Numbered from the stretch's first letter, positions 17,451 through 32,593 are shown. The stretch: DNA of 39,036 nt from Acidobacteriota bacterium (GCA_014584695.1 JACTMI010000047.1:1-39036), one strand, 5' to 3'. The notes: generated by a model from the sequence alone, not told the origin. Translations and numbers: made by a program.

Positions 17451-17452
17451 CG

Positions 17453-19864
17453 ATGGAACCGATCCGGAGCCGCGGCGAAGCGCTGCTCGACGACTGGCGG
17501 GCGTGGAGCCGCGAGCGCGTCGACCGCACCGTTCCTTTCTTCCGGCGCCTGGTGGCGATCGGACGCCCCTTCCTCCTGCGCAACGACCTGCGCGCCGCGA
17601 TGGCCGAGGAGGTCGCGCGCGATCCGGCGCTCGCCGGCTCGCCGCTCGAGCGCGCGATCGAGCGCGCCCAGGAGGCGGCCACCGACGGCCATCGGCTGCT
17701 GTTCGCGCTGCGCCCGCGGGCGGGGGAATGGCGCCATGCCCAGGGCGACGTCGACAACGGCTTCGTCGAGCCGGTCTCCGCCGGGCGCTATCTCGAGTTC
17801 AAGGAGGCCCTGGTGCTCGGCCGGCCGGCCGATCCCTGGACGCCGGTCTTCGACCTCGGCCCCTTCGAGCGCGAGTTGCCACGGATGACCGAAGCGCGCT
17901 CGATCGGGCGCGGCGCCGAATTCCTGAACCGGACACTGTCGAACCGGCTCTTCCGCGCCGATGGCGAGGGCGTCCGGCGCCTGCTCGAGTTCCTGCGGCT
18001 CCACCACGCCTCCGGCCAGCAGCTCCTGGTCAGCGACCGAATCGAGAGCGTCGGCGCGCTGCGCACCGCCGTGCGGCGGGCGCTCGACGAGCTCGAAGAG
18101 CGCGCCGCCGACACCTCCTGGGCGGAGCTCGCGCCGGCGCTGCGCGCGCTCGGCCTGCAGCCGGGCTGGGGCAGGACCGCCGCCGGCGTTCGGGCGACTC
18201 TCGGACTGCTCGCCGATCTGCTCGAAGCGCCCGACCCGGAGACCGTCGAGCGCTTCCTGGCGCGGATTCCGATGATCTTCTCGGTGGTTGTCCTGTCGCC
18301 CCACGGCTGGTTCGGCCAAACCGATGTTCTCGGCCGCCCGGACACCGGCGGCCAGGTGGTCTACATCCTCGACCAGGTGCGCGCGCTCGAGCGCGAGATG
18401 CGGCGCCGGCTGGCCGAACAGGGGGTCGAGGTCGAGCCACGAATCCTGGTGGTCACCCGGCTCATCCCCGAGGCGGAGGGGACGACCGCCGATCAGCGCT
18501 ACGAGCCGGTCGCGGGCACCGAGCGCGCCGCGATCCTGCGGGTTCCGTTCCGCGACGCCGAAGGCGCGGTGCAGCCGCGCTGGATCTCCCGCTTCGAAAT
18601 CTGGCCCTGGCTCGAGCGCTTCGCCGGCGACGTCGAGCGTGAAGTGCTGGCCGAGCTCGGCGGGCGCCCCGATCTGCTGGTCGGCAACTACTCCGACGGC
18701 AACCTGGTGGCGACGCTGCTCGCCCGCCGCCTGGGGGTCACCCACTGCACCATCGCGCACGCGCTCGAGAAGTCGAAGTACCTGCTCTCCGACGCCTACT
18801 GGCGGGACCTCGACGCGCAATACCACTTCGCCGCCCAGTTCACCGCCGATCTGGTGGCGATGAACTCGGCCGATTTCGTCATCGCCTCGACCTACCAGGA
18901 GATCGCCGGCACCGCCGACGCCGTCGGCCAGTACGAGAGCCACGCCACGTTCTCGCTGCCGGGTCTCTACCGGGTCCAGCGCGGCATCGACGTCCACGAC
19001 CCGCGTTTCAACATCGTCTCGCCGGGCGCCGATGCGCGCGTCTTCTTCCCTTTCGGCGAGGGCGAGCGCCGGCTCGTCGGGCTGCGGGCCGAGATCGAAG
19101 CGATGATCTTCGGCGGCGCGCGACCGGACGCCCGGGGCGAGCTCGCCGAGCCGGAGCGGCCGCTGCTGTTCTCGATGGCGCGGCTCGACCGGATCAAGAA
19201 CCTGACCGGCCTGGTCGAGGCCTTCGGCCGGCACGAGCGCCTCGGCCGAATCGCCAATCTGCTGATCGTCGCCGGCCACGTCGACGCCGGCGCCAGCACC
19301 GACACCGAGGAGCGGGCCGAGATCGAGAAGATGCACGCGCTGATGGACGAGCTCGGGCTCGAGGGTCGCGTGCGCTGGCTGGGTGTGCGGCTCGAGAAGG
19401 GCCTCACCGGCGAGCTCTACCGGATCGTCGCGGACCACCGCGGCGCCTTCGTCCAGCCCGCGCTGTTCGAGGCGTTCGGCTTGACCGTGATCGAAGCCAT
19501 GGCGACCGGACTGCCGACCTTCGCCACCTGCTACGGCGGCCCGCTCGAGATCGTCGAGGACCGCGTCTCGGGCTTCCACGTCGATCCGACGCGGGGGCCG
19601 GAGATGGCCGACCGGATCGCCGACTTCCTCGAGGCCTGCGCCGACGATCCCACCCGCTGGGACGAGATCTCCGCCGGCGCGATCGCGCGCGTGCGCAGCC
19701 GCTACACCTGGGAGCTCTACGCCGAGCGGATGATGACCTTCGCCCGCACCTACGGCTTCTGGCGCTTCATGACCGACCTCGAGCGAGCCGGCGCCCACCG
19801 CTACCTGGATCTCTTCTATGCCCTGCAGTTCCGGCCGCTGGCGGAGAGGATCCGTCCGGCCTGA
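17453..19864 (+). CDS. sus: Sucrose synthase
   Basis: 803 residues, the usual length for sucrose synthases, starting at the ATG at 17453, two bases after the preceding stop; a longer open frame upstream is a shadow. The N-terminal region matches the regulatory domains of the family (VDNGFVEPVSAGRYLEFKE, about residues 100-118). The GT-B catalytic part contains HGWFGQTDVLGRPDTGGQVV (about 284-303), the sugar-binding segment THCTIAHALEKSKY, and the E-x7-E motif E673/E681 in FEAFGLTVIEAM. The enzyme reversibly converts sucrose plus NDP to NDP-glucose plus fructose. At the positions of the plant Gln/Asn pair linked to UDP preference, this protein has R646 and T652, so ADP preference, as in other bacterial enzymes, is inferred. 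Together with the two genes before it, it forms a complete sucrose synthesis and mobilisation module. Confidence 0.95.
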   Translation: MEPIRSRGEALLDDWRAWSRERVDRTVPFFRRLVAIGRPFLLRNDLRAAMAEEVARDPALAGSPLERAIERAQEAATDGHRLLFALRPRAGEWRHAQGDVDNGFVEPVSAGRYLEFKEALVLGRPADPWTPVFDLGPFERELPRMTEARSIGRGAEFLNRTLSNRLFRADGEGVRRLLEFLRLHHASGQQLLVSDRIESVGALRTAVRRALDELEERAADTSWAELAPALRALGLQPGWGRTAAGVRATLGLLADLLEAPDPETVERFLARIPMIFSVVVLSPHGWFGQTDVLGRPDTGGQVVYILDQVRALEREMRRRLAEQGVEVEPRILVVTRLIPEAEGTTADQRYEPVAGTERAAILRVPFRDAEGAVQPRWISRFEIWPWLERFAGDVEREVLAELGGRPDLLVGNYSDGNLVATLLARRLGVTHCTIAHALEKSKYLLSDAYWRDLDAQYHFAAQFTADLVAMNSADFVIASTYQEIAGTADAVGQYESHATFSLPGLYRVQRGIDVHDPRFNIVSPGADARVFFPFGEGERRLVGLRAEIEAMIFGGARPDARGELAEPERPLLFSMARLDRIKNLTGLVEAFGRHERLGRIANLLIVAGHVDAGASTDTEERAEIEKMHALMDELGLEGRVRWLGVRLEKGLTGELYRIVADHRGAFVQPALFEAFGLTVIEAMATGLPTFATCYGGPLEIVEDRVSGFHVDPTRGPEMADRIADFLEACADDPTRWDEISAGAIARVRSRYTWELYAERMMTFARTYGFWRFMTDLERAGAHRYLDLFYALQFRPLAERIRPA

Positions 19865-19887: not shown

Positions 19888-20334
19888 TCAGGCGGAGGAG
19901 TCGTCGTTCCAGGCCGCCGCGTCGCCGACCGCGATCTCGCCGTCGTCGAGCAGCTCGCCGTAGGCGCCGGCGCGCCAGTCGGGCAGCAGCGCCTCCTGGA
20001 GGCGCGGGTGGGCCTCGTTCATCCGCTCGCAGGGGCGGGTGTTGCCGTGGATGCGGATCCGCACCGCGCCGAGCTCGAGGATGCGGCCGCGGCTCTCGAG
20101 GTAGTCGATGCCCTCGGTCAGCACGTTGGCCCGCCGGGCGGTGAAGGCGACCGGCGCGCCGACCGCCGCCTCGGCGTCGCGCCAGCGCGCGAGGTCGATC
20201 AGCGTCACCTGGCGGCGCCCCCCCTGGTCGGCGTTGCCCTCGAGCCCGACGCCGGCGAGCGAGCGCGCCCGCTCGACCGGGTCCATCGGCCCCCGCTTCG
20301 CCCGCTTGATCCAGATCGCCGCGATGTGTCCCAT
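19888..20334 (-). CDS. MOSC-domain protein
   Basis: 148 residues. The MOSC pattern is visible: an early GLEGNADQGGRRQVTLID segment, a central LESRGRILELGAVRIRIHG strand region, and the conserved cysteine in TRPCERM. Stand-alone MOSC proteins act in sulfur carriage or as molybdenum-cofactor-dependent reductase components; the substrate here is unknown. It lies 31 bases after the second ABC exporter on the same strand and converges with sucrose synthase 23 bases away. It could ride at the end of the peptide-export operon, but functionally it looks like a bystander. A second possible start (Met17) is in frame. Confidence 0.8.
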   Translation of the reverse strand: MGHIAAIWIKRAKRGPMDPVERARSLAGVGLEGNADQGGRRQVTLIDLARWRDAEAAVGAPVAFTARRANVLTEGIDYLESRGRILELGAVRIRIHGNTRPCERMNEAHPRLQEALLPDWRAGAYGELLDDGEIAVGDAAAWNDDSSA

Positions 20335-20365: not shown

Positions 20366-22504
20366 TCAGGGATGAGCGATCACCAGCAGCGACCGGGCGC
20401 GGCCGCGGACGAAGGTGAGCGCGCGCTCGAGATTCTCCGGGTCGAGCGCCGCGAAGCTCTCGTCGAGCAGCAGCAGCTCGGGATCCTGCAGCAGCGCGCG
20501 GGCCAGGAAGAGCCGGCTGCGCTCGCCGTGGGAGAGCTGCCAGCCGGTGTCGCCCACCGTCTGGAGCAGGCCGGCCGGCATGCGGTCGAGCAGCTCGCCC
20601 AGGCCGAGCCCGCGGCAGACCGCGTCGACCTCGTCGAGGTCGCGCTGGCTCGGCGGCCAGTCGCGCCCGAGCAGGGCGTTGAAGGCGAAGCTCTCGGTCA
20701 GCACGTGGTTCTCGTGGAACTGCGGCGCCGCCACCACCCGCTTGCGCCAGCCGGACTCGCCGAGGGTGTGGCGGTCGAGGCCGCCGAGCAGCAGCAGCCC
20801 CGAGGCCGGCGCGCGCCACCCGGCCAGCAGCGCCGCGAGCGTCGACTTGCCGCCGCCGGACGGCCCCTCGAGCAGGAGCTGGTCCCCGGCGGCGATCCGC
20901 AGATCGCAGCCGTCGAGCACCGGCTCGGGCCGGCCGGCGTGGCGGAAGACGAGATCGTCCGCTTCGAGCAGCGCCGGAGCGCCAGCCGGCGCGGTGCCGT
21001 CCGTCTTCGGCGGCGGCCCGACGCACGGCTCGTCGGCCGCGCGTGCCCCGGCCGCGAACAGCGGCGCCACCTGCCGCCAGGCGATTCCGGCGCCGGCGAG
21101 GTGGGCGATCCCCGCGCTCAGCCGGCGCAGCGCCCGGAAGGCGACGAGCAGGCCGCCGACCGCGATCGCGAGCCCGGCCGCGGTGCCGCGGCCGCCGACG
21201 AAAGCCGGCGCGAGCGCCAGCAAACCGAGCAGCAGCCAGCCGCGCGGCACCAGCGCCTGCAACTCTGCGTGGCTCACGTCCATCGCGCGCGAGCGCTCGA
21301 GATAGCGTGCCAGCGCGGCGTCTTCCGTGCGGTGCCAGGCCGCCGGATCCTCCTGCGCCAGCCGGGTGCGGTGCCCGATCATCCCCTCGACCAGGTCGTG
21401 CGTCATCGCCAGCCGCTCCTCGGTCCAGGCGCGCCGGCGGCGGTGGTAGCGGCCGGCGAGCGCCAGCGCGACGCCGGTCCAGGCGACCAGCAGGAGGGCC
21501 ATCGGCCAGCCCCCGGCGCCCAGAGCGAGCACAGCCACGGCGAGCGCGAGCTCGATTCCGGCGACCAGGCCGAGCAGGCCGCCGCTCAAGGCGAGCGACT
21601 CCATCGCCTCCGCCTCGACCACCCGGCCGAGCAGCTGACCGACTCCCTGGTGCCGGACCTCCTCCGGCTCGAGGCGCAGCGCCCCGGCGAGCAGGCGCCG
21701 CTTGAGCAGGGCGCCCGCGCCCAGCGCCACCGCGCCCTGCAGCCAGGTGACCAGCAGCTGGAACGGGATCAGCGTCGCGAGCAGCAGCGCCCACGACAGC
21801 ACCCAGCCGCGATCCATCCGGCCGGAGAGCGCCGCGCTGCCGACCAGCCACCAGGAGGCGAGCCAGAGCAGGTACTGCGCGGCGTGCGCGAGCGTGAGGC
21901 CCGCCAGGCGGCGCGACAGGCCGGCGCCCGCCGCCTGCGCCGCGAAGCTCGCCGCGGGAGGCGAGCGCAGCAGCCAGCAGACGCCGAGCGGCTCGCTGGC
22001 CAGGCGCTGGCCGAGCAGCGCCGCGCGGGCCCGCGCCCGCCGCCGCGGCGCCACTTGGGCCGCGGCGAGCACCGCTTCGACTTCCCCGGCGTGGCGCGCC
22101 GTGGCCGCGCGCCCGAGCGCCGCGCGGAGCGCCTCCAACGGCAGCCAGCGGCGGCGCAGATCGGCGCCCAGCACCAGGACGCGCCGGCGCCCGCCCCGCA
22201 AGAGCGCCAGGTCGCGGCGCTCCTCGCCGTCGAGCCGGAGCAGCGCCGGGCCGGCCCGCGCCAAGAGATCCGGAAGCTCGGCGTAGGTCAGCCGCGTCGG
22301 CTCGGCCTCGAGTCCCGCCGCCGTGGCGAGCGCCGCGATCGGCGCGGGCTCCGCCTCGCCGGACGCCCCGTCGGCGACCCCATCCCGCTGCGCTCGTTGC
22401 GCGCGCGCGAGGCCGCTCGCGCGCGCGAGCGCATCGATCGCCTCCGGCAACCGTGCCGCCGGCCAGAGGCACGCCTCGAGCTCGCGTCCGGTGCGGCGGC
22501 TCAT
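20366..22504 (-). CDS. ABC exporter, second subunit, with degenerate C39-like N-terminus
   Basis: 712 residues from the ATG at 22504, overlapping the upstream stop (ATGA). The first 150 or so residues resemble a C39-like fold without the catalytic residues (a stretch around LTYAELPDLLARAGPALLRL). A membrane domain with several helices (AQYLLWLASWWLVGSAAL, WVLSWALLLATLIPFQLLV, LLGLLALAPAFVGG) precedes an ATPase with Walker A GPSGGGKST (about 546-554), signature LSHGER (about 656), Walker B LLLLDES and a last-residue H-loop VIAHP. The protein ends one residue after the H-loop His, much earlier than in typical family members. Paired with a C39-ABC and an HlyD adaptor, it resembles the two-ABC export systems of NHLM-type peptide clusters. 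It probably forms part of the exporter for the repeat peptide encoded upstream (inference). Confidence 0.85.
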   Translation of the reverse strand: MSRRTGRELEACLWPAARLPEAIDALARASGLARAQRAQRDGVADGASGEAEPAPIAALATAAGLEAEPTRLTYAELPDLLARAGPALLRLDGEERRDLALLRGGRRRVLVLGADLRRRWLPLEALRAALGRAATARHAGEVEAVLAAAQVAPRRRARARAALLGQRLASEPLGVCWLLRSPPAASFAAQAAGAGLSRRLAGLTLAHAAQYLLWLASWWLVGSAALSGRMDRGWVLSWALLLATLIPFQLLVTWLQGAVALGAGALLKRRLLAGALRLEPEEVRHQGVGQLLGRVVEAEAMESLALSGGLLGLVAGIELALAVAVLALGAGGWPMALLLVAWTGVALALAGRYHRRRRAWTEERLAMTHDLVEGMIGHRTRLAQEDPAAWHRTEDAALARYLERSRAMDVSHAELQALVPRGWLLLGLLALAPAFVGGRGTAAGLAIAVGGLLVAFRALRRLSAGIAHLAGAGIAWRQVAPLFAAGARAADEPCVGPPPKTDGTAPAGAPALLEADDLVFRHAGRPEPVLDGCDLRIAAGDQLLLEGPSGGGKSTLAALLAGWRAPASGLLLLGGLDRHTLGESGWRKRVVAAPQFHENHVLTESFAFNALLGRDWPPSQRDLDEVDAVCRGLGLGELLDRMPAGLLQTVGDTGWQLSHGERSRLFLARALLQDPELLLLDESFAALDPENLERALTFVRGRARSLLVIAHP

Positions 22505-25206
22505 CGCCCCGCGCCCCCGGCGGCGGCCTCGACCAGGCGGCCCGCTTCGATCCGGAGCCGGCGCCAGAAGGGCGCCCGCCAGGTCCGCTCGGCGAGCGCG
22601 CGCTCGGCGGCGGCGAGCGCCGCGTAGCGCGAGTCCGGACGGGCCGCGAGCTCGCGCGGCGCGCCATCCTCGACCACCCGGCCCCCTTCGACCACCAGCA
22701 CGCGGTCGAACTCCGCGGTCTCGCCGACGTCGTGGGTGACGCACAGCAGCGTCGCCGTGCGCCAGTGCTGGCGCGACCGCGCGAGCAGCTGCCGCCGCTG
22801 CGGGCGCGCCAGGCCGCGGAACGGCTCGTCCAGGATCGCCAGCGCCACCCCCGGCCGCAGCAGCGCGCGCGCCCACCGGATGCGCTGACCCTCACCCCCC
22901 GAGACCAGACCGCCCCCCTCCCCGAGCGGCGTCTGGAGGCCGCGCGGCAGCTTCTCGACCAGCCCCCGGAGCTCGGCCGCCTCGAGCGCCGCGCCGCCGG
23001 CCGCCGCCGCGCCGGCGTCGGCGCCGTAGGCGAGATTGTCGAGCAGCGTCTGGTTCCACAGCTGCACCGCGGGATCGACCCAGACCGTCCGCCGCCGCAA
23101 GCGCGCGAGCTCTTCGCCCATCAGCGGCCGACCGTCGACGAGGACCCGGCCCCGCTCGGGCCGGTGCCAGCCGAGCAGCAGGCCGACCAGGCTCGACTTG
23201 CCCGCCCCGGAGGGACCGACGATCGCGACGTGGCTGCCGGCGGCGACTTCGAGGTCGAGGTCGTCCAGGAGGGTGTGCCCCGATGCCTGCACCCGGACTC
23301 CTTGGAAAGCGAGCGCGACGCCGGCGGTCGAGGGCACCGCCGGTCGCTCCAGGTCGTCCCCCGAAGCGACCACGGTGCCCGCGTCCTCTTCCGGCGCTCC
23401 CAGCGGCTCGAGCAGCCGCAGCGCGAGGCTCCGGTGCGCCGGGTACTGCCAGGCGAGCTGCGCCAGCTCTTCGCCGAGCACCGGCAACTGCAGCGCCCAG
23501 TAGACGAGCAGGAGGGCGCCGCCGCCGTCGCCACCCCGCTCGACGTGGCGCAGCAGGAGCAGCGCCGCGGCGCCGAAGCCGGCCACGAACTGCGCTCCTT
23601 CGATCGCGACCGCGGCGCGCTGGCGGCGCCGCCCGGCGCGCACCCAGTCGGCCACCAGGGCCTCGTGCTCCCGCCGGACGGCGCGCTCGGCGCCGTGCGC
23701 CCGCACCGCCAGCAGGCCGAGCAGGCCGTCGAGGTAGAAACGCCCGAGCGCCGCGGCGTGGCTGCGCAGCCTCAATTCGCGTTCCGTCAGCGTCGGCTGG
23801 GCGGCGAGCGGCAGCCCGAGCGCCACCGCCATCGCGAACAGGGCCCAGGGCGCGCTCGCCGGGTCGAGCCAGACGATGCCGGCGGTGGTCAGCAGCAGGG
23901 CGAAGGCGGCGCGCGCCAGCTCGCCTCCGAGCTCGGGCAGCTGGCGGATCTGGTGCACGGTGTGACCGCGCTCGGCCATGTCGGAAGTGAGCCGGCTGTG
24001 GAAGTAGCGGTCGCCCAGGCGGGGGATTTTCGACAGGAACGCGAGGCGCAGCCGCGCCTCGAGGTGCCGGCCGAACCGGAGCAGCCCGGTGGCGACCGGC
24101 AACTCGACCAGCAGCAGCGCGCCGGCCAGGGCCACGAGCGCCACCAGGGCGCCGAGCCGCTGCCCGGCCAGACCGAGCCGGTCGCCGAGGTCGAGCAGGC
24201 CGCGCAGCAGCAGCGCCTCGATCACCACACCGCCTGCGGCCAGCGCCAGCGCGCAGGCGAGCGCCGCGGGGGCGAGCGCGCCGTCGGCGCCGAGCAGCTC
24301 GAGCAGCTTTCGACCCGGCCGGGTCGGCGGCTCTTCGAGCACCGCCGCCAGGCCGGCCGGCAGGCTCGCGGCCTCGGCCTCGCCGGCCACGGCGAGGCTG
24401 GCCGAGGCTCGCCCAGCGATGTGCACCAAGACCGCGCCGCGCATCGCGAGCTGCGCGCCGCCGTCGGCGCCGGGCGCCGCCGGGCGGACCGACCAGGCGC
24501 TCGCGGGCAGCGCCGGCGTCTCCCCGCGGCGGCCCTCGGCGAACCAGCGCGAGAGCGCACGCGTCGCTTCGCGGCCCCGCGCCAGCCCGCCCGCCGCCAC
24601 CAGATCGACCGTCGCGCGCGCCGCGGCGTCGAGCGCCGCGAGGCCGCGCCAGCCCGGCTCGGCGAGCGCCGCGGCGTAGAGCTCGTCGACCTCGGCCGCG
24701 CCGACCCCCGCCGCCGCCAGGCGCCGCCCGAGCGCGAGGCGCAGGCTGCCGCTCGCCGCCCAGCCGCGCCAGGCATCGGCCGGCACCACCTGCTCGTGGG
24801 GGTAGACCTCGTCGAGAAAGCGGCGCCAGGGGACGAAGCGCCGGCCGATGCGCGGATCCATGAGCTGGAGCCAGGGCCCGTGCCGGCGCCAGGCGACCAG
24901 GAAGTGGGCGGGGCCACCCGGCGTGCGCACGACGACGATCGCCGGCAGCTGCTCGGGCAGCACGGCGTGGTCGACCGGCACCAGGATCTGCTCGGCGTCG
25001 AGCCCCAGCCGGCAGGCCACTTCCTGAAGCGTGTCGATCGAGGTGCCGTCGACGTCGGTTTGGCAGGCCTCGCGCAAGCGGCCGTAGCTGGCGCGGATCC
25101 GGTGCCCCTCGAGCAGGCACTTGAGCGCCGCCGGGCCGCAGTCCATGGTCGAGGTCTGGACCACCTCGGGGGCGAGCCAGCGCCGGCGCCGCCCCACCGC
25201 GCTCAC
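22501..25206 (-). CDS. C39 peptidase-containing ABC transporter (peptide exporter/protease)
   Basis: 901 residues from a GTG at 25206 that overlaps the HlyD stop (GTGA). The N-terminal C39 cysteine protease has a complete catalytic set: oxyanion Gln17, Cys23 in TMDCGPAALKCLLEG, His101 in GGPAHFLV and Asp117 in LMDPRIG. C39 domains cut after double-glycine motifs while the transporter exports the cargo. Between the peptidase and the membrane helices is an unusual extra segment of about 170 residues (about 130-300) rich in Ala and Arg. Membrane helices follow (about 310-600), then the ATPase with Walker A GPSGAGKSS (about 662-670), signature VSGGEGQR, Walker B AILDEP and H-loop CVTHD. The D-loop lacks the usual SALD (here FRGLARPQ). 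Its position between the HlyD and second-ABC genes and downstream of the repeat peptide suggests that peptide is its cargo. Confidence 0.92.
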   Translation of the reverse strand: MSAVGRRRRWLAPEVVQTSTMDCGPAALKCLLEGHRIRASYGRLREACQTDVDGTSIDTLQEVACRLGLDAEQILVPVDHAVLPEQLPAIVVVRTPGGPAHFLVAWRRHGPWLQLMDPRIGRRFVPWRRFLDEVYPHEQVVPADAWRGWAASGSLRLALGRRLAAAGVGAAEVDELYAAALAEPGWRGLAALDAAARATVDLVAAGGLARGREATRALSRWFAEGRRGETPALPASAWSVRPAAPGADGGAQLAMRGAVLVHIAGRASASLAVAGEAEAASLPAGLAAVLEEPPTRPGRKLLELLGADGALAPAALACALALAAGGVVIEALLLRGLLDLGDRLGLAGQRLGALVALVALAGALLLVELPVATGLLRFGRHLEARLRLAFLSKIPRLGDRYFHSRLTSDMAERGHTVHQIRQLPELGGELARAAFALLLTTAGIVWLDPASAPWALFAMAVALGLPLAAQPTLTERELRLRSHAAALGRFYLDGLLGLLAVRAHGAERAVRREHEALVADWVRAGRRRQRAAVAIEGAQFVAGFGAAALLLLRHVERGGDGGGALLLVYWALQLPVLGEELAQLAWQYPAHRSLALRLLEPLGAPEEDAGTVVASGDDLERPAVPSTAGVALAFQGVRVQASGHTLLDDLDLEVAAGSHVAIVGPSGAGKSSLVGLLLGWHRPERGRVLVDGRPLMGEELARLRRRTVWVDPAVQLWNQTLLDNLAYGADAGAAAAGGAALEAAELRGLVEKLPRGLQTPLGEGGGLVSGGEGQRIRWARALLRPGVALAILDEPFRGLARPQRRQLLARSRQHWRTATLLCVTHDVGETAEFDRVLVVEGGRVVEDGAPRELAARPDSRYAALAAAERALAERTWRAPFWRRLRIEAGRLVEAAAGGAGR

Positions 25207-26396
25207 GCGCCCGCCCCCGCCAGCGGGACGCCGCGGTCGCCGACCGGCCGCGCCAGGCGCCGGCCGGCGGCGCGCAGGACGAGCTCGGCCGGCGAGACGC
25301 GCTCGATCTCGACCTCGACCACGCCCGGCAGGCCGTGCTCGAGCGGAATCAGCGTCGAGGTCGCCGGCGTGAGCTCGAGCTCGACCCGGATGCGGCCGCG
25401 CTCGAGCTCGCTGGCGACCGCGGTGACGGTCGCCGCGACGGTGCCGAACTGCGCCCAGGAGAAGCCCTCCAGCCGCAGCCGGGCCGGCTGCCCCGGCCGC
25501 ACCCGGCCGAGCGCGGTCGCCGGGGCGAAGCTCGCCACGATGCGGACGCCACCGGGCGGGACGATCGCGCCCAGCCGCTCCCCCTCGTCGACCACCGCGC
25601 CGACGCGCAGCTCGGCCATTTCGCCGACCCGCCCGGCAACCGGCGCGCGCAGCTGGCGGCGGTCGACTTCGTGGGCCAGTCGCGCGACCGCCGTCGTCGT
25701 CGCCGCCGCGCGCCCCTCGAGCTCGGCGAGCGCCCCTTCGAGCGCCGCGATCCGGGCGCGGCGGTCCTCGACGCTCACGCCGAGGTCGCGCTCGAGCCGC
25801 GCCACCGCGAGGCGCTGGCCCTCGACCGCGGACCGACTCCGGCTCGCTTCGGCACGGGCGCGCAGCGCCTCGAGCTCGGCCGCCATGCCGGCTTCGAGCA
25901 ACCGCTCGATCCGCTCCGCCTCCTGCGCGGCGAGCGCCGCCACCGCCTCGGCCTCGCGCACGCGGGCGCGCGCTTCGTCGCGCGCCGCGCGCCCGCCGTC
26001 GAGCTGCGCGGCGAGGGCGCGTCGTTCGACCGTCACCTCGCCCGCGAGCGCTTCGAGCTGGGCCGCGAGGGTCGAGATCTGGCGCCGCTCCTGCTCGAGC
26101 CGCAGGCGCTCCGGCTCGGCGTCGAGCTCGACCAGGACCTCGCCCGCCTGCACTTCCAGACCGAGCTCGAGGCGCGAGGAGACGATCCGGCCGAGCACCG
26201 GCGAGGCGATGGGGTGCGCGGCGGCGGCAGCTTCGAGCCGCGCGCTCTCCGACAGCTCGTAGAGCGGCAGCTCCGCGGCGAGGAACCAGACCAGCCAGAC
26301 GGCGACGAGCGCCGCGGCGACGGCGAAGGCCACGAGCGACGGACGGAAGCCGTCGGTGTCGAGCGAGCGCAGCGTCCGGTCGAACGGCGTCGGCAC
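25203..26396 (-). CDS. HlyD-family membrane fusion / adaptor protein
   Basis: 397 residues from a GTG at 26396 with a very strong purine-rich ribosome site upstream; longer versions of this frame are shadows. After a short cytoplasmic start there is one membrane helix (SLVAFAVAAALVAVWLVWFL, about 20-40). Next comes a lipoyl-like half-domain (HPIASPVLGRIVSSRLELGLEVQ), a long coiled coil of Glu/Arg/Ala-rich heptads (about 90-225), the second lipoyl half (LRAPVAGRVGEMAELRVGAVV) and a beta-barrel region. HlyD adaptors link an inner-membrane ABC exporter to the outer membrane. It is translationally coupled to the C39-ABC gene. The expected outer-membrane TolC-type partner is not in the window and may be encoded elsewhere. 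Confidence 0.92.
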   Translation of the reverse strand: MPTPFDRTLRSLDTDGFRPSLVAFAVAAALVAVWLVWFLAAELPLYELSESARLEAAAAAHPIASPVLGRIVSSRLELGLEVQAGEVLVELDAEPERLRLEQERRQISTLAAQLEALAGEVTVERRALAAQLDGGRAARDEARARVREAEAVAALAAQEAERIERLLEAGMAAELEALRARAEASRSRSAVEGQRLAVARLERDLGVSVEDRRARIAALEGALAELEGRAAATTTAVARLAHEVDRRQLRAPVAGRVGEMAELRVGAVVDEGERLGAIVPPGGVRIVASFAPATALGRVRPGQPARLRLEGFSWAQFGTVAATVTAVASELERGRIRVELELTPATSTLIPLEHGLPGVVEVEIERVSPAELVLRAAGRRLARPVGDRGVPLAGAGA

Positions 26397-26397
26397 G

Positions 26398-26408
26398 TCC
26401 CTCCTCCT
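26398..26408 (-). promoter_or_regulatory. Strong ribosome binding site of the HlyD gene
   Basis: On the minus strand AGGAGGAGGGA lies just upstream of a GTG at 26396. It decides this start over the many upstream in-frame codons. It is far stronger than sites at the coupled genes downstream, suggesting that this start sets translation for the whole export module. Confidence 0.8.
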
Positions 26409-26434
26409 CTTCGAGCTGAACCGCGGGCGGGCGG

Positions 26435-26440
26435 ATTGTA
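26435..26440 (-). promoter_or_regulatory. Possible internal -10 element (TACAAT) before the HlyD gene
   Basis: The 98-base gap between the TPR and HlyD genes contains TACAAT (five of six matches to TATAAT) about 40 bases before the start, but no good -35 box. The same gap starts with a GC-rich imperfect hairpin. A secondary promoter or processing site for the exporter genes is possible. Confidence 0.25.
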
Positions 26441-26494
26441 GCCGCTCGGAGCACCGCTTCGGCCCGCGCCGCCCGCCCCGGCGGCGGGCTCGGC

Positions 26495-27634
26495 TCAGGC
26501 CGACAGTTGCCGCAGGCGCGCCGCGCAGGCGCGGGTGTGCGGATGGCGCGGACCGAGGGCGCGCTGGAAGCCCGCGAGCGCCGCGGCGTAGAGCCGGCGC
26601 GCCTCTCGCGGCCGCCCCCGCTGCTCGGCGAGCGCGGCGAGGTTGTGGCCGACGAGGGGCAGATCCGGGTGGTTTGGCCCGCCGATCTCGCGCAGCAGGC
26701 GCAGCGCGCTCCGATAGCTGCGACCGGCCGCCGCGAGCCTCCCGGTGGCCGCATGGACGGCGCCGAGATTGCTCAAGTTGATCGCGATCTCGTAGTGCCT
26801 GGGCCCGAAGGCGCCGCGGAAGATCGCCAACGCGCGCCGGTAGAGCGGCTCGGACTCCGAATAGCGGCCGAGACCGTCGAGGATCGCCGCGAGCGCCGCG
26901 AGATCGGCGCCGAGCTGGGGGTGGCGCGGCCCGAGCGCCGCCTCCGAGAGGGCCGCCGACCGGCGGGCCCAGCCCTCCGCGCGCGCGTAGCGGCCGCGCG
27001 CGTGCTCGAGCCCGCCCAGGTTGTGGTAGAGCGGCGCCAGGTCCGGATGGTCCTCGCCGAGCGCCGCGACGAGCACTTCGCGCGCCCGGCGATAGCAGCG
27101 CGCCGCCGCGGCCAGCCGGCCGCGGAACTTCTGCACGCCGCCCAGGGCGACCCGTGCCTGCGCGATCTCGAGATGGCGCGCACCGAGCTGGCGCCGGCCG
27201 AGAGCGAGCGCCCGCTCGAGCGCCCGCGCGGCGGCCCCGTATCTTCCCTGGTCGCGCAGCGCGCAGCCGACCAGCACCCGGCAGCGCAGACGAAGGGTCT
27301 CGAGCTCTTCGCCCCCGGGCGCCAGACGGGCGAGGCGCGCGACGGCGCCGCGCGCCTCGGCGGCCGCCCCCTCGTAGCGGCCACGCGCGAACAGCACCGT
27401 CGCGAGCGTCTGGCTGGCACCGGCGACATCGGGATGCCGCCTTCCGAGCCGTGACTCGAGACCCGCGAGCGCCCGTCGGGCGAGCCGCTCCGCCGCGGCG
27501 AGGTCGGTGGCATGGAGCGCGGCCACCGCCCGGTCGTGGAGCGCCAGGGCGCGTTCGACCGAGGGTGGCCGCGAGCTCGGACTGGGTCTGGCGGCGGCAG
27601 GCGATCGGGCCTGCCGGCACCTCGCCACCGTCAC
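26495..27634 (-). CDS. Cytoplasmic TPR (kinesin-light-chain-like) repeat protein
   Basis: About 379 residues from a GTG at 27634, two bases after the stop of the repeat peptide; a second GTG at 27628 is equally possible, and the frame is open further upstream through the peptide gene. The body is made of about seven 42-residue tetratricopeptide repeats of the TPR_10/TPR_12 type (for example LGPRHPQLGADLAALAAIL, EPLYRRALAIFRGAFGPRHY and GPNHPDLPLVGHNLAALAEQ). No signal peptide or membrane helix is seen, so it is probably cytosolic. TPR proteins bind peptides or proteins. Lying directly between the peptide gene and its presumed exporter, it could be a chaperone, escort or immunity factor for the repeat peptide (inference). 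I do not recognise a specific named family member. Confidence 0.82.
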   Translation of the reverse strand: MTVARCRQARSPAAARPSPSSRPPSVERALALHDRAVAALHATDLAAAERLARRALAGLESRLGRRHPDVAGASQTLATVLFARGRYEGAAAEARGAVARLARLAPGGEELETLRLRCRVLVGCALRDQGRYGAAARALERALALGRRQLGARHLEIAQARVALGGVQKFRGRLAAAARCYRRAREVLVAALGEDHPDLAPLYHNLGGLEHARGRYARAEGWARRSAALSEAALGPRHPQLGADLAALAAILDGLGRYSESEPLYRRALAIFRGAFGPRHYEIAINLSNLGAVHAATGRLAAAGRSYRSALRLLREIGGPNHPDLPLVGHNLAALAEQRGRPREARRLYAAALAGFQRALGPRHPHTRACAARLRQLSA

Positions 27635-27636
27635 CT

Positions 27637-27918
27637 TCAGCCCCGGGCGAGGCTCTTGTTGTGCTGGAGGTAGGGGCCGCCGGCCTTGACGCCCGTGCGC
27701 ACCTGGACGCCCGCCTGGCTCTTGTTGTGCTGGAGGAACGGGCCGCCGGCCTTGACGCCGGTGCGGACGGAGACGCCGCGGAGGTTCTTGTTGTGCTGCA
27801 GGAACGGTCCACCCGCCTTGACGCCGGTGCGCACCTTCACGCCCGCCTGGCTCTTGTTGTGCTGCAGCACCGGCCCGCCCGCCTTCACACCCGTCCGCAC
27901 CGCGATGCCCTTCGACAT
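27637..27918 (-). CDS. Four-repeat 93-residue peptide, candidate exported precursor
   Basis: 93 residues from the ATG at 27918. A start MSKGIA is followed by four repeats of 22, 22, 22 and 21 residues. Each has the core VRTGVKAGGPxLQHNK, with x being V, F, F and Y, then a linker (SQAGVK, NLRGVS, SQAGVQ, SLARG). The core is otherwise invariant in protein, yet many codons differ synonymously between copies (for example GGC/GGT/GGG/GGA glycines), so the conservation is at protein level. There is no classical signal peptide and no separate leader region. Each repeat has a Gly-Gly followed by Pro. It is strongly basic, with no Asp, Glu or Cys, and contains one His-Asn per repeat. The gene lies between a kinase and a TPR gene in a same-strand array leading to C39-ABC, ABC and HlyD genes. 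Export by these and a signalling or antimicrobial role are inference. I cannot name a family for it. Confidence 0.85.
   Translation of the reverse strand: MSKGIAVRTGVKAGGPVLQHNKSQAGVKVRTGVKAGGPFLQHNKNLRGVSVRTGVKAGGPFLQHNKSQAGVQVRTGVKAGGPYLQHNKSLARG
27640..27900 (-). repeat. Four in-frame 66-base repeats encoding the 22-residue peptide unit
   Basis: Units run at 27900-27835, 27834-27769, 27768-27703 and 27702-27640 (the last is one codon short). Bases differ mostly at third codon positions and in the linkers, so the repeats are old rather than freshly duplicated. Units 1 and 3 share a similar SQAGV linker, suggesting an ancestral pairwise duplication. Confidence 0.92.
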
Positions 27919-27926
27919 GGTCGTCG

Positions 27927-27932
27927 CCCTCC
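27927..27932 (-). promoter_or_regulatory. Shine-Dalgarno of the repeat-peptide gene (GGAGGG)
   Basis: GGAGGG on the minus strand is followed by eight bases and then the ATG at 27918. This fixes the start of the 93-residue peptide against a longer shadow frame running upstream through the kinase gene. Confidence 0.85.
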
Positions 27933-27959
27933 GAGTTCGCCGGCGCCGCCATGGCGCCT

Positions 27960-30800
27960 TCATCTCCACAGGCGCAAACCGGAGACAAAACCCACAACGG
28001 CCATGGGAGCCCGCGCGGCAACCGCCGCTTCGGCGGCGCCCGGCGCCTGCGGACAGCCCGCCAGCTCCGCCTCCAGCTCGGCCTCGACGCGACCCGTGAA
28101 GGCGGTCGGCGGGCCCGGCCACTGGCGCCAGATCTCGATCGCCTCGCGGGTCGACGGGCAGCGCTCTCCCGGACGCAGCTCGGCGCGCAGACGCAGCGCC
28201 TCGGAGAGCCCGAGCACGACCTCGATCGCCTGCGGATGGCTTGCCTGGAGCGCCCGCAGTTCTTCGATCAGCGCGGCGAGCTCGGGCTCGGCACTGGAAT
28301 CGCCGAGCGCGCGCAGCGCCCGGACCCCTTGATAGCGGCACGACAGGTGAGCCGCCCGCTCCTCGACGCCGGCGCCCGGAGCGAGCTCGTTCTGTTCGGC
28401 GAGCACCCGGCCGGCGCGGAGCGCCGCGCGCGCCTCGTCGAGTCGGCCGACCTGGGCCAGGGGCTCGGCCATCGAGCAGCGGGTGAAGCGCTCGAACTGG
28501 CGGAAGTAGCCGGCGGCGCGCGCTGCGGTCGGCATGGCCTCCCAAATCGCCAGGGCGCGCTCGAACAGGGGCAGGGCGGCGGCCGGGGACCGTCGCGCGC
28601 GCAGCACCGCGAGCGGCGTCAGCGTGCCCGCCACCTCCGATGCCGCACGCTGGTCGAGGCTGTCGCGGCTGAAGAGGCGCTCCGCCAGCTCCAACGCCCG
28701 CTCGAGGGTCGCCTCGCCCGCCGCAGCGTCGGCAGAGTGCGGATTCCAGATCGACAGCTCGGAGACACCCGTGAGGCTCTTCGCTTCCCAGATGCTGGCC
28801 AACCAGAGCTCGCGCCGGTAGCCGGCATGCTCGGGATGCTCCTCCACCAGTTCGGTGAACAGTCTCCGCGCCTCCCGCAGGGCGACGGCCGCGCCCTCCG
28901 GGTCGGCTTCGGCGAAGTGCAGGGCTCCCTGGGCCTCCAGGCAGATCCCCAACCAGTAGGTGGCGCGCGCCGAGGGCCGCGTCCGGGACCAGCGTTCGGC
29001 CACCTGCTGGGCCTTCGCGACGCTCCCCGCCACCGCCGCCACCACCCCGTGCGCGCTCTCGTGCTCGAACTGGGAGAGGTGCGCCAGCAGCGCCACCTCG
29101 TAGTCGTAGCTCTCGGACTCGGGCAGCGATTCGACCAGCCTGACCGCGCGGCGGACCGCGTCGCGACCGGCGGCTGGATCCCCCTCCCTGGACAGCGGCT
29201 CGCCGGACTGCAGGAGCACCCGGGCCAGCGACCAGGAGACGGCCTCCGGCTCGTGGCCGCGAGCGAGGAGCTGCTCGAGCATGGCGCGCGCTTTCGAGTA
29301 GTTCTCGATCGCCTCGCGCGGACGGCCGAGATTGGGTCCGCGGGGGTTGGCCAGAATGTCGCCGGTCTTGAGGTAGGCGAGCGCCACCTCGCGCGCCAGG
29401 GTCGCGTCACCGCCGGCTTCCGCGGCCAGGCGATCGAGGTACTGGCGTGCCCGGCTCACGATCAGCTCGCGCGCCGCGGTCGCGCCTTCGAGATGCTGAA
29501 TCTGCTCGTCGACCTCGAACAGCAGCGAGTTGGCGAGGTGGCGGACGTCCTCGAAGCGGCGCTCGGCGCGCCGGGCCTGCTCGAGCGAAACCACGGTCGC
29601 GACGCCCAGCGCGGTGGCGACCGCCGCCGCGATCGCGATCGGCACCCGGCGGCGGCGGACGAACTTGCTCGCCCGGTAGCTCCAGGTGCCGGCGCGCGCG
29701 AGGACGGGACGGCCGTCGAGGTGCCGGCGCACGTCTTCGGCGAGCTGCTCGACCGAAGCGTAGCGCCGCGCCGGCTCTTTCTGCAGCGCCTTGAGCACGA
29801 TGTTGTCGAGGTCCCCGGCGAGCGCCCGCCGGCGGGCCGGAGCCGCCACGGTCGACGGCCGCGGCGGCTCGCGCTCGCAGATCACGCGCAGGGTCTCGAC
29901 CACGTCGCCGCCGGAGAGGCGGTGGGCGCGCTCGCCGCAGAGCAGCTCGTAGAGCACGGCGCCCAGCGAGTAGACGTCGGTCGCCACCGTGATCGACTCC
30001 GCGCGCGCCTGCTCCGGGCTGCCGTACTCGGGGGTGAACAGGTGCATGCCGGTCCGCGTGCGCGCCTCGCGCGTGCCGGCCTCGCTGCCGAGCAGCTTGG
30101 CGATGCCGAAATCGAGCAGCTTCGGCACGCCGTCGGCGCCGACCAGGATGTTGCTCGGCTTCAGGTCGCGGTGGACGACCAGCCGCTGGTGCGCGAACTG
30201 CACCGCGGCGCAGACCTGCCCGAACAGCTCCAGCCGCGCGCGGATCGACAGGTGGTGGCTCTCGCAGTAGTCGGTGATCGGCTCGCCCTCGACGTACTCC
30301 ATCACCAGGTAGGGCAACCCGTCGCCGGCGCTGCCGCCGTCGAGCAGGCGGACGATGCCCGGGTGCTCGAGCGCGGCGAGCAGTTGCCGCTCGTCGCGGA
30401 AGCGCGCCACCGCCTCGGTGGTCTCGAGGCCCCGGCGCAGCAGCTTGAGCGCCACCCGCTGTTCGAACTCGAGGTCGTCGCGGACGGCCAGGAAGACCGT
30501 GCCCATGCCGCCGCGGCCGATCTCGCGATCGATCCGATAGGGCCCGATGCGGGTCCCGATGCGGCCCCCTGGATCGGCCAGGTAGCGGGCCTCGGCCCGG
30601 ATCGCGGCGCCGAGAGAGTCGGCGGCGGTGGCGGCGTCGGCGCGCAGCAGGGAGTCGACCTCGGCGCGCAGGCCGAGGTCGTCGCCACACGCTCCGGCGA
30701 GATAGGCCGCCCGGGCCTCGGGCGGCAGCTCGACGGCGGCCTGGAAGAGCGCTTCGATCCGCCGCCAACGCTCCGGGTCGAGCGGGCTCGCGCCGCTCAT
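27960..30800 (-). CDS. Transmembrane Ser/Thr protein kinase with TPR-like C-terminal sensor region
   Basis: 946 residues from the ATG at 30800, which overlaps the sigma factor stop (ATGA). The N-terminal segment (WRRIEALFQAAVELPPEARAAYL) is the adaptor found in many acidobacterial kinases. The Hanks-type kinase domain (about 88-365) is complete: glycine loop GRGGMG (95-100), Lys119, HRDLKPSN (210-217), DFG (230-232) and SPEQA (261-265). A membrane helix follows (about 386-406), and the C-terminal 540 residues form a helical, TPR-like periplasmic region. Autophosphorylation and target phosphorylation on Ser/Thr are expected, with the outer part as sensor. Its neighbours are an ECF sigma factor upstream and the repeat-peptide gene 41 bases downstream, suggesting that it controls that operon (inference). 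Confidence 0.93.
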   Translation of the reverse strand: MSGASPLDPERWRRIEALFQAAVELPPEARAAYLAGACGDDLGLRAEVDSLLRADAATAADSLGAAIRAEARYLADPGGRIGTRIGPYRIDREIGRGGMGTVFLAVRDDLEFEQRVALKLLRRGLETTEAVARFRDERQLLAALEHPGIVRLLDGGSAGDGLPYLVMEYVEGEPITDYCESHHLSIRARLELFGQVCAAVQFAHQRLVVHRDLKPSNILVGADGVPKLLDFGIAKLLGSEAGTREARTRTGMHLFTPEYGSPEQARAESITVATDVYSLGAVLYELLCGERAHRLSGGDVVETLRVICEREPPRPSTVAAPARRRALAGDLDNIVLKALQKEPARRYASVEQLAEDVRRHLDGRPVLARAGTWSYRASKFVRRRRVPIAIAAAVATALGVATVVSLEQARRAERRFEDVRHLANSLLFEVDEQIQHLEGATAARELIVSRARQYLDRLAAEAGGDATLAREVALAYLKTGDILANPRGPNLGRPREAIENYSKARAMLEQLLARGHEPEAVSWSLARVLLQSGEPLSREGDPAAGRDAVRRAVRLVESLPESESYDYEVALLAHLSQFEHESAHGVVAAVAGSVAKAQQVAERWSRTRPSARATYWLGICLEAQGALHFAEADPEGAAVALREARRLFTELVEEHPEHAGYRRELWLASIWEAKSLTGVSELSIWNPHSADAAAGEATLERALELAERLFSRDSLDQRAASEVAGTLTPLAVLRARRSPAAALPLFERALAIWEAMPTAARAAGYFRQFERFTRCSMAEPLAQVGRLDEARAALRAGRVLAEQNELAPGAGVEERAAHLSCRYQGVRALRALGDSSAEPELAALIEELRALQASHPQAIEVVLGLSEALRLRAELRPGERCPSTREAIEIWRQWPGPPTAFTGRVEAELEAELAGCPQAPGAAEAAVAARAPMAVVGFVSGLRLWR

Positions 30801-31363
30801 GCCGGCGCGAGCTGTTGCTGGAGCCAGGCGCGCGCCAGCCGCAGCTCGCGCGCGACGGTGTTGACGTGGACGCCGAGCAGCGACGCCACCTCCTCCTGAC
30901 CGAGGCCGCCGAAGTAGTGCCATTCGACGATGCGCGCCTTGCGCTCGTCGAAGGCGGCGAGCCGCTCGAGCGCGTCGTCGAGGAGGAGCAGCTCCTCCGG
31001 CCGCTCGCGCGCGAGCAGGGCTTCGTCGAGGGTCACCGCGCGCTCGCCGGCGCCCCGCTTGCCGGCGCTCCGGCGGCGGGCGTGGTCGACCAGGATCTGG
31101 CGCATGTGGCGGGCGGCGATGGCCAGGAAGTGGGTCCGCCCGGACCACTCGCGGCCGCCGTCGTCGACCAGCCGGAGATAGGCCTCGTGCACCAGCGCGG
31201 TGGGCGCCAGCGTGTGGCCGGGGCGCTCCCCGCGCAGGTAGGACGAGGCCAGCCGCCGCAGCTCGTCGTAGAGCAACGGCGTCAGGCGTTCGAGCGCGGA
31301 GGCGTCCCCGCCGCTCCACAGATGGAGCAGCCGCGTCACGTCGCGACGGGCGATCGAGTCCAT
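30797..31363 (-). CDS. ECF-family RNA polymerase sigma factor (Sigma70_ECF type)
   Basis: 188 residues from the ATG at 31363; a GGAG lies six bases upstream. Region 2 (about 10-90; HLWSGGDASALERLTPLLYDELRRLA, then HTLAPTALVHEAYLRL) and region 4 with a helix-turn-helix (about 130-185; EEVASLLGVHVNTVARELRLARAWL) are both present. It matches the acidobacterial/planctomycete ECF type commonly paired with Ser/Thr kinases. It overlaps the kinase gene by four bases. No anti-sigma factor gene is adjacent, so kinase-based control, as known for EcfP/PknT in Vibrio, is a reasonable model (inference). Target promoters are unknown but may include this operon. Confidence 0.93.
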   Translation of the reverse strand: MDSIARRDVTRLLHLWSGGDASALERLTPLLYDELRRLASSYLRGERPGHTLAPTALVHEAYLRLVDDGGREWSGRTHFLAIAARHMRQILVDHARRRSAGKRGAGERAVTLDEALLARERPEELLLLDDALERLAAFDERKARIVEWHYFGGLGQEEVASLLGVHVNTVARELRLARAWLQQQLAPA

Positions 31364-31919: not shown

Positions 31920-31955
31920 GATGTTTTGATGCTTCGATGCTACCATGCCGCCATG
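31920..31955 (+). promoter_or_regulatory. Five GATG/CATG iterons at 8-bp spacing, candidate RHH operator
   Basis: GATG at 31920, 31928 and 31936 and CATG at 31944 and 31952 start exactly eight bases apart; the last contains the antitoxin ATG. Ribbon-helix-helix regulators are known to bind tandem 8-bp boxes cooperatively (MetJ), so an autoregulatory operator is likely. A -35/-10-like pair (TGGATG, 17 bases, TACCAT) overlaps it. Confidence 0.55.
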
Positions 31956-32189
31956 GCCCGGGTGACCCTGACGCTCCCCGACGAGCTTCATCGCGCGCTC
32001 AAGGAGGCGGCCGCCACGCGCGGGCGGACGATCGGCGAGCTGGTCGCCGAGAGCGTGCGCTTCTACGGCATCCAGCCGCGGGAGGAGGCGGCCGCGATCG
32101 TGGCGCGGGCGCGCCAACGCTCCGGCCTTTCGGAGCGGGCGGCGCTCCGCCTGGCGATCGCCGAGACGCGGTCGGCACGGCGGCGATGA
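31953..32189 (+). CDS. Ribbon-helix-helix antitoxin
   Basis: 78 residues from the ATG at 31953; an upstream ATG at 31917 would add 12 residues coded by the iteron DNA and is less likely. The N-terminal RHH fold is seen: beta strand ARVTLTLPDELHRAL followed by helices KEAAATRGRTIGELVAESV. The C-terminal part (EEAAAIVARARQRSGLSERAALRLAIAETRSA) should wrap the toxin. It overlaps the PIN gene by four bases (ATGA at 32186-32189). No Shine-Dalgarno is visible, so leaderless initiation is possible. RHH antitoxins bind the operator and neutralise their toxin. Confidence 0.85.
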   Translation: MARVTLTLPDELHRALKEAAATRGRTIGELVAESVRFYGIQPREEAAAIVARARQRSGLSERAALRLAIAETRSARRR

Positions 32190-32593
32190 GGCCCGTCGCG
32201 GTCGTCGACACGAACGTCGTCGTGGCCGCGCTCTTGACCGCCGACGCGGCCTCCCCGACCGCCCGCATCCTCGCTGCCATGTTGGCGGCGGACTTCGTCT
32301 TCCTGCTCTCGGAGGAGCTCCTCGCGGAATACCGCGGGGTCCTCCTGCGCGGGCCGATCGCGACCCGCCACGGTCTCTCGGCGGACGAAGTCGACGAGCT
32401 GCTGGTCGCGCTGGTAGCTCACGGCACGCTGAGGCGACCGGGCCCGGCGAGCTCCGGTCCGCGCGGCGACGAGCACCTGTTCGCTCTGCTCGCGACCGAC
32501 CAGCGGGCTCTCCTGGTCTCGGGTGATGCCGCCGTGCTGCGCCGCGCCGGCGAGCGCGGCCGCTCGCCGGCGGCCTTCGTCGAGCGGCCGTGA
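32186..32593 (+). CDS. PIN-domain toxin (putative ribonuclease)
   Basis: 135 residues, overlapping the antitoxin. PIN-domain acidic residues are visible: Asp8 in VVDTNVVVAALL, Glu43/Glu44 in LLSEELLAEYRGVL, and later acidic residues in GDEHLFALLATD and VSGD. The N-terminal pattern VVDTNVVVAAL and the length fit the COG1569/TIGR00305 type of putative toxin. PIN toxins of toxin-antitoxin pairs cut RNA in the presence of Mg2+ or Mn2+. It ends 22 bases from the convergent DAHP synthase stop. Target RNA and activity cannot be told from sequence. Confidence 0.86.
   Translation: MRPVAVVDTNVVVAALLTADAASPTARILAAMLAADFVFLLSEELLAEYRGVLLRGPIATRHGLSADEVDELLVALVAHGTLRRPGPASSGPRGDEHLFALLATDQRALLVSGDAAVLRRAGERGRSPAAFVERP

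Follow-up and report, generated by a model that had tools for sequence, protein, structure and literature searches.

The stretch of DNA described here, referred to below as the window, comprises the whole of a 39-kb contig (39,036 nucleotides) from an Acidobacteriota bacterium (GCA_014584695.1 JACTMI010000047.1:1-39036), whose genome of 4.35 Mb lies in 48 contigs. Its minus strand carries, from 20366 to 31363, a run of seven genes for a sigma factor, a kinase, a repeat peptide, a tetratricopeptide repeat (TPR) protein, an HlyD-type adaptor, a C39 peptidase fused to an ATP-binding cassette (ABC) exporter (C39-ABC) and a second ABC protein. As a whole this cluster is best explained as a unit dedicated to making and exporting a peptide, a reading to which we assign a probability of roughly 0.77. 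The repeat peptide is most likely a special case of a larger family of very small peptides that share the stretch MxVKTxVKAG, and comparison across genomes leaves little doubt that both this family and its pairing with this kind of exporter are real. The seven genes and the four units of the peptide are as follows.

30797..31363, minus strand: extracytoplasmic function (ECF) sigma factor, 188 amino acids (aa), TIGR02999 (Sig-70_X6) subfamily, sigma2.2 stretch TLAPTALVHEAYLRL
27960..30800, minus strand: Ser/Thr kinase, 946 aa, kinase domain ~88-351, one membrane helix ~388-406
27637..27918, minus strand: tandem precursor peptide, 93 aa, four 22-aa units, each a leader-like xVRTGVKAG followed by a core GPxLQHNK...
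27844..27909, minus strand: peptide unit 1, GIAVRTGVKAGGPVLQHNKSQA
27778..27843, minus strand: peptide unit 2, GVKVRTGVKAGGPFLQHNKNLR
27712..27777, minus strand: peptide unit 3, GVSVRTGVKAGGPFLQHNKSQA
27646..27711, minus strand: peptide unit 4, GVQVRTGVKAGGPYLQHNKSLA
26495..27634, minus strand: TPR protein, 379 aa, GTG start, start position uncertain
25203..26396, minus strand: HlyD-type periplasmic adaptor, 397 aa, single N-terminal membrane helix
22501..25206, minus strand: C39 peptidase and ABC exporter of the peptidase-containing ABC transporter (PCAT) type, 901 aa, Gln/Cys/His/Asp intact
20366..22504, minus strand: second ABC exporter subunit, 712 aa, without C39 match

The initial annotation had described seven same-strand genes with gaps of -4 to 98 bases, and all of them are present, at distances in gene order of -4 (sigma/kinase), 41, 2, 98, -4 and -4 bases, with their families confirmed by profile scores (Pkinase 142 bits; HlyD_3 54.7; second ABC_tran 68.1; TPR protein matched by TPR_12/TPR_10). 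Within the run a single site resembles an intrinsic terminator (28007-27991, in the last part of the kinase gene), and it is no better than expected by chance.

The 93-aa reading frame, which begins MSKGIAVRTGVKAGGPVLQHNKSQAGVKVRTGVKAGGPFLQHNKNLRG, is genuinely coding and under protein-level selection. Codon differences between its units comprise 39 synonymous and 24 non-synonymous changes, third positions account for 52 of the 84 base differences, and the pairwise ratio of non-synonymous to synonymous rates (dN/dS) between units is ~0.07-0.3, with alternative frames scoring worse; the unit motif occurs four times in the window and not at all in 100 shuffles. A homology search with the whole peptide gave no genuine match in 99 relatives or plasmids, its single match (L003) being rejected as an antisense low-complexity similarity, the fixed pattern KAG[GA]xxxxHN was matched more than once only in the window among 396 genomes of the phylum, and viral contigs gave six single chance matches. 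The idea that the peptide is an orphan was overturned by a motif scan of the whole genome collection (84,980 genomes; DNA pattern for V-x-T-x-[VIL]-K-A-G-x5-H-N), which returned 53 loci, of which 18 are true members of the family and contain their units singly or in tandem.

These NHN-type units, with the consensus GLxVKTxVKAGGxxxNHNQT, are found in Acidobacteriota, Planctomycetota, Myxococcales bacterium 68-20, where the peptide is 61% identical to that of the window, and Amycolatopsis. The number of units ranges from 1 to 15, with 84 units in a single genome (G453) and, in another (G450), four separate one-unit genes of 21 aa each; the functional element is therefore the unit and not the repeat array. 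At L202 four consecutive tandem-unit peptide genes carry two Cys per core (KICPNRNCAGAEEDPNHNQ), a branch of the NHN class that contains Cys. The genome with 84 units, that of uncultured Acidobacteriia Umea1_bin-0121 (L127-L138, L207, L208), has them mostly in sigma-peptide-kinase modules without an adjoining exporter, and one exporter lies elsewhere.

As the scan used the peptide motif alone, what lies around its hits is a result independent of it. A C39-ABC/second-ABC set related to that of the window was found within ~10 kb of the peptide in 10 of the 16 genomes, with HlyD in nine; of the remaining NHN genomes, three have a C39-ABC elsewhere and in three none was found. Amycolatopsis, which is monoderm, has the order peptide, TPR protein, C39-ABC and second ABC with no HlyD, and that HlyD is absent only there is what would be expected of an envelope-spanning exporter. 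The initial annotation had looked for support to unrelated genomes in which such repeat peptides occur together with C39-ABC/HlyD genes, and this pairing was recovered across four phyla. Its further suggestion, that the peptide is tied to a sigma factor and kinase, also recurs in several genomes, as a TIGR02999 sigma and/or Ser/Thr kinase adjoins the peptide in G450, G452, G456, G457, G459 and G461 and at most G453 loci. The background of TIGR02999 sigmas runs from 0 to 47 per genome; in G453 (Acidobacteriia) such a sigma lies within 4 kb of 10 of the 12 peptide contigs, where 3% would be expected for each (P ~6e-14). Furthermore, a TPR protein 34-48% identical to that of the window stands beside nearly all tandem-repeat sets. 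Clustering of the neighbours gave no further partner common to many loci and no recurrent immunity-type gene, and the neighbours shared across loci include no enzyme that modifies ribosomally synthesised and post-translationally modified peptides (RiPPs), in keeping with the absence first noted in the window. The window combines the exporter half and the sigma/kinase half in a single run. Myxococcales 68-20 has a second exporter set (L143), with no recognised leader peptide nearby and a 52-aa open reading frame containing CVMCC.

The family extends well beyond the NHN class. When the C39 part was used to search the order of the window, 15 further exporter genomes emerged, with the arrangement HlyD, C39-ABC and second ABC wherever the contig was long enough, and these 15 loci appeared peptide-free until the tiniest genes upstream of HlyD were read. 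Immediately upstream of HlyD lie micro-peptides such as MTVKTQLKAGQSTTGILE, MKITTSLKAGQSLSVIVE and MKVKTNVKAGLAPTCGCGATGRKGHKTSYQGRHTG, and a planctomycete locus (L108) has three copies of MNVKTNxKAGPSxQxKRxVILKSSTAGN; together with the 93-aa tandem peptide, family peptides such as MQVKTKVKAGFDLEDY and MKINTSVKAGQSTTGILE are candidate C39 substrates. The micro-peptides, whose genes lie at the exporter locus or elsewhere in the same genome, have MxVKTxVKAG in common and share no sequence beyond it. When a pattern covering the leader stretch was applied, it found matches in 23 of 27 exporter-bearing genomes, with 2 matches in total for the reversed-pattern control. The unbiased subset consists of the 15 genomes of the order that were chosen by exporter only, and in these the micro-genes occur in 13, with 38 matches in 97 Mb and none for the reversed pattern; a GTG-start copy additionally adds G030 to the carriers. 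Of 45 genomes of this order without the exporter (229 Mb), 2 have one match each, neither passing a filter for size plus ribosome site, and the difference from 13 of 15 is significant (Fisher P = 2e-9). Over the 396 genomes of the phylum a strict leader pattern gave two matches, both in exporter genomes. The majority of the matches are 15-35 aa long with strong ribosome sites, and as many as about eleven different peptides occur in one genome.

Since the pattern fixes leader positions, the conservation of the leader is partly by construction, and the argument for a family rests on the contrast between exporter-positive and exporter-negative genomes, on the reversed-pattern control and on the tails. 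These include FDLEDY, AVDGVVITDM, RIHIIGLG, PDISN, PRIIINP, LFPWID/SFPWVN/NFPWID, QSTTGILE and DVTVPACDGSSKEAGY. The FDLEDY core is identical between relatives despite a synonymous change, and the QSTTGILE core is identical with three synonymous changes in a pair whose leaders differ at 5 of 10 residues. The tails are hypervariable between loci yet kept in orthologues and paralogues, and leader and core therefore behave as two modules. The window peptide had been called a leaderless repeat peptide, a description that does not survive this comparison, as the xVKTxVKAG half of each unit recurs in peptides without repeats whose tails are unrelated, so that a short leader of its own is most likely present in every unit. 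The MxVKTxVKAG peptides would thus form a widespread and apparently undescribed family with an ultra-short leader, hypervariable tails and one kind of exporter. Fifteen family peptides gave no NCBIfam or Pfam match apart from scattered single weak ones, and no paper was found that prints the motif or describes a fitting system in a search that left subscription papers and preprints outside, where a prior description is possible.

The exporter itself is well supported by its profile scores (Peptidase_C39 59.1 bits against a gathering threshold of 22; fused ABC_tran 74.8 against 25), and its transporter part matches the PCAT1 structure 4ry2. The protease had been reported as intact, and indeed the Cys, His and Asp of the triad and the Gln preceding the Cys are all present, the four residues being conserved in 30 of 30 aligned C39 domains. 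The N-terminal region of the second ABC protein has, judged by eye, the appearance of a degenerate C39-like domain. C39 domains cut after a motif of the double-glycine type and require Val, Leu or Ile (or Thr) at -4, and in LahT Leu-7 and Leu-12 also matter while Lys at -7 blocks cleavage (PMC6363468). Assuming a cut after the invariant Ala-Gly of the family, position -4 is Val, Ile or Leu in essentially all members. In a tree of C39 domains the exporter of the window falls loosely among those of Acidobacteria, outside the main clade of its own order; the set may have been transferred as a whole, though support for this is not strong.

The sigma factor scores 212.8 bits against TIGR02999 (cut-off 126.15) and its gene is overlapped by the kinase gene by 4 bases. 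Its sigma2.2 motif, TLAPTALVHEA, has a Thr where ordinary ECF sigmas carry acidic residues, and most of the peptide-linked sigmas read by motif have TLQPTAL or similar (L107 has Ala). A conserved Thr in sigma2.2 is a feature of the kinase-activated ECF43 sigmas (PMC13147305, PMC8999054). In nearly all peptide-linked kinases a single membrane helix follows the kinase domain, and the large part beyond it is presumably extracytoplasmic and would act as a sensor; in the window this C-terminal part has ~540 aa and weak TPR similarity. Control of the operon by the kinase and sigma factor is the somewhat favoured outcome on these grounds.

Neither a membrane helix nor a signal is present in the TPR protein, which is predicted to form a TPR superhelix whose repeats fill the model (mean predicted local distance difference test score, pLDDT, 92). 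The model superposes on a phage Rap protein (8rsv, Z 27.7 over 335 residues), RapF (4i9c, 27.0) and NprR (5dbk, 25.9), it also aligns almost end to end with MalT domain III and APPBP2, and Foldseek ranks the kinesin light chain TPR at the top. A peptide-binding groove is likely from the model, which only suggests a role as receptor. Pfam finds solely TPR families in the protein and no helix-turn-helix or phosphatase-type output domain, and its score against the TPR protein of the FxSxx-COOH system (NF040586) is 132.2 of 300 bits, below the cut-off. In six loci (L184, L189, L191, L193, L198 and L211) unlinked micro-peptides have other TPR proteins alongside, twice with an ECF sigma gene ahead of them. 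These form a second TPR family of 340-460 aa, some members with an N-terminal HxxxCxxC, and are candidate receptors or anti-sigma sensors.

Taken as a production and export unit, the cluster may work as follows. The 93-aa product would be a four-unit tandem precursor, in which the exporter recognises the xVRTGVKAG of each unit as a very short leader, the remainder being the core. The C39 peptidase would most likely cleave after the invariant Ala-Gly, which we consider a reasonable if not a secure expectation from the residue at -4 and the intact protease, and the C39-ABC/second-ABC pair would move the product across the envelope together with HlyD. Export of the peptide is very probable, and the same type of exporter probably handles the many other peptides of 15-35 aa that share only MxVKTxVKAG. 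An outside signal, possibly the peptide itself, would activate the transmembrane kinase, which would phosphorylate the ECF sigma and so control the operon, whilst the TPR protein may be a cytoplasmic partner of the peptide, binding it as receptor or chaperone. Whether the product is a signal or a weapon we regard as evenly balanced. More tentatively, and with odds a little short of even, the family may represent a new class of peptide signalling in diderm soil bacteria, with dozens of micro-genes per lineage, each combining the ten-residue MxVKTxVKAG leader with a private core of 5-25 residues, one shared C39/HlyD exporter, and a sensor for each peptide, either a transmembrane Ser/Thr kinase with an ECF sigma or a Rap-like TPR protein.

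Several observations weigh against this account. The exporter locus of the window has the sole NHN-type peptide of its order, and the 15 exporter loci of the order have, except for L034, no adjoining sigma, kinase or TPR gene, these partners therefore not being obligatory. TPR folds are common and a shared fold shows no function. The classical criteria for a double-glycine leader (GG/GA/GS; hydrophobic residues at -4, -7 and -12) fit the family only at -4: the Ala-Gly is invariant, -7 is Lys, Gln or Arg, the hydrophobic residues lie at -8 and -10 and single-unit genes have no -12, and it follows that the C39 domain must read this leader differently or cut elsewhere. In a tandem precursor, furthermore, a cut after every Ala-Gly would yield each core joined to the next leader, which would require trimming or some other logic.

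It is also conceivable, if somewhat unlikely, that the exported cores are bacteriocin-like antimicrobials and that the sigma factor, kinase and TPR protein only regulate or protect. C39 exporters carry bacteriocins as well as pheromones (PMC6363468), the precursors hold several units and exist in several copies (one genome has 84 units) and certain cores contain Cys (LAPTCGCG...), yet many cores, such as PDISN, FDLEDY and FPWID, have only 5-10 residues and a neutral or acidic character, unlike known bacteriocins, and the lack of a recurrent immunity-type gene in the neighbourhoods speaks in the same direction. That the sigma/kinase pair is an ordinary regulator of the Acidobacteria type, placed upstream of an exporter-peptide operon by chance, would seem unlikely: whilst the window's genome has 13 TIGR02999 sigmas, such kinase domains are very common and the pair is missing at most exporter loci of the order, it adjoins the peptide in several unrelated genomes, including G450 and G456 with only 2 or 4 such sigmas, and the same is seen for the sigma at 10 of 12 peptide contigs of G453.

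The peptide might, on the other hand, stay within the cell, either bound by the TPR protein as its ligand or itself binding metal through His and Asn, the exporter having another cargo. The TPR gene adjoins the peptide at most tandem-repeat loci and the NHN His and Asn are the most conserved core residues; however, what is common to the other exporter-linked peptides is VKTxVKAG and not NHN, and the C39-ABC and second ABC adjoin the tandem peptide in 10 genomes, accompanied by HlyD in each of the nine presumed diderms, which makes an intracellular role quite improbable. Least credible is that VKTxVKAG is itself the functional peptide and the tails neutral filler, as although it is the sole part common to all members, cores such as QSTTGILE and FDLEDY are letter-identical in pairs of orthologues or paralogues in which as many as 5 of the 10 leader positions differ. 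A production and export unit for short cores remains the preferred explanation.

A MOSC-domain gene (19888..20334, minus strand) follows 31 bases downstream of the run and is co-directional, but is absent among the recurrent neighbours of relatives and is probably outside the system. Just past it, on the plus strand (15282-19864), is a sucrose pair, a fusion of glycosyltransferase and sucrose-phosphate phosphatase followed by sucrose synthase. Further along the minus strand are a surface-type protein of 3168 aa with DUF11, PKD, Calx-beta, FG-GAP and HYR domains (4469-13975) and an RHS-repeat protein with 15 RHS repeats that extends past the contig end (3-4373). Directly upstream of the sigma gene on the opposite strand is a pair resembling a ribbon-helix-helix/PIN toxin-antitoxin (31953-32593, plus strand). 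Anti-phage defence was considered for the system and set aside, as only generic kinase and ABC matches were obtained.

Genes of 15-35 codons escape annotation, and a family so small and variable would be invisible without its leader motif. If the proposal is true, MxVKTxVKAG with a ribosome site, in genomes that have this C39 exporter, would pick out the secreted peptides of soil phyla about which little is known, and the neighbours of the micro-genes would give candidate receptors. Pairs of Ser/Thr kinase and ECF sigma are abundant in Acidobacteriota and Planctomycetota, mostly without known signals, and some of them would become tied to defined, synthesisable peptide candidates.

Among known systems, the PCAT and ABC transporter maturation and secretion (AMS) exporters of peptides with double-glycine leaders likewise have an intact Cys/His/Asp C39 domain, an ABC exporter, HlyD, a hydrophobic -4 and hypervariable cores after a conserved leader, with many peptides per exporter. 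The present system differs from them in its ten-residue leader without hydrophobic -7 and -12, Ala-Gly in place of GG/GA/GS, mature parts down to 5 residues, leader-core units in tandem and no modifying enzyme. The NHLM/NHLP export systems (TIGR03794, TIGR03796, TIGR03797) also have C39-ABC, second ABC and HlyD in a row, whereas here there is no nitrile-hydratase-like or Nif11 leader and no RiPP enzyme; membership was rejected on scores that are all far below cut-off (ABC1 165.7 of 853.3, ABC2 99.4 of 709.4, HlyD 33.4 of 156.2 bits). The sigma/kinase half resembles the ECF43 sigmas with Hanks kinases (EcfP/PknT of Vibrio, EcfK/PknS of Xanthomonas), in which a TIGR02999/PF07638 sigma with the sigma2.2 Thr stands beside a transmembrane Ser/Thr kinase, but the known cases govern polymyxin resistance or a type VI system, whereas in the present case a peptide and its exporter lie alongside. 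With the RRNPP systems (Rap-Phr, NprR-NprX, Rgg-SHP) the cluster shares a TPR gene beside a micro-peptide gene and a superhelix that matches Rap and NprR over nearly its full length, whilst it differs in that no output domain was found, a C39 transporter is used instead of Sec/PptAB and the hosts are diderm. The Rap-Phr sets of Bacillus have a logic comparable to that of the proposed signalling class, built from different parts. Each part of the system is known in kind, and what we call new is the distinct leader, the very short products and the kinase, sigma and TPR partners of C39-exported peptides.

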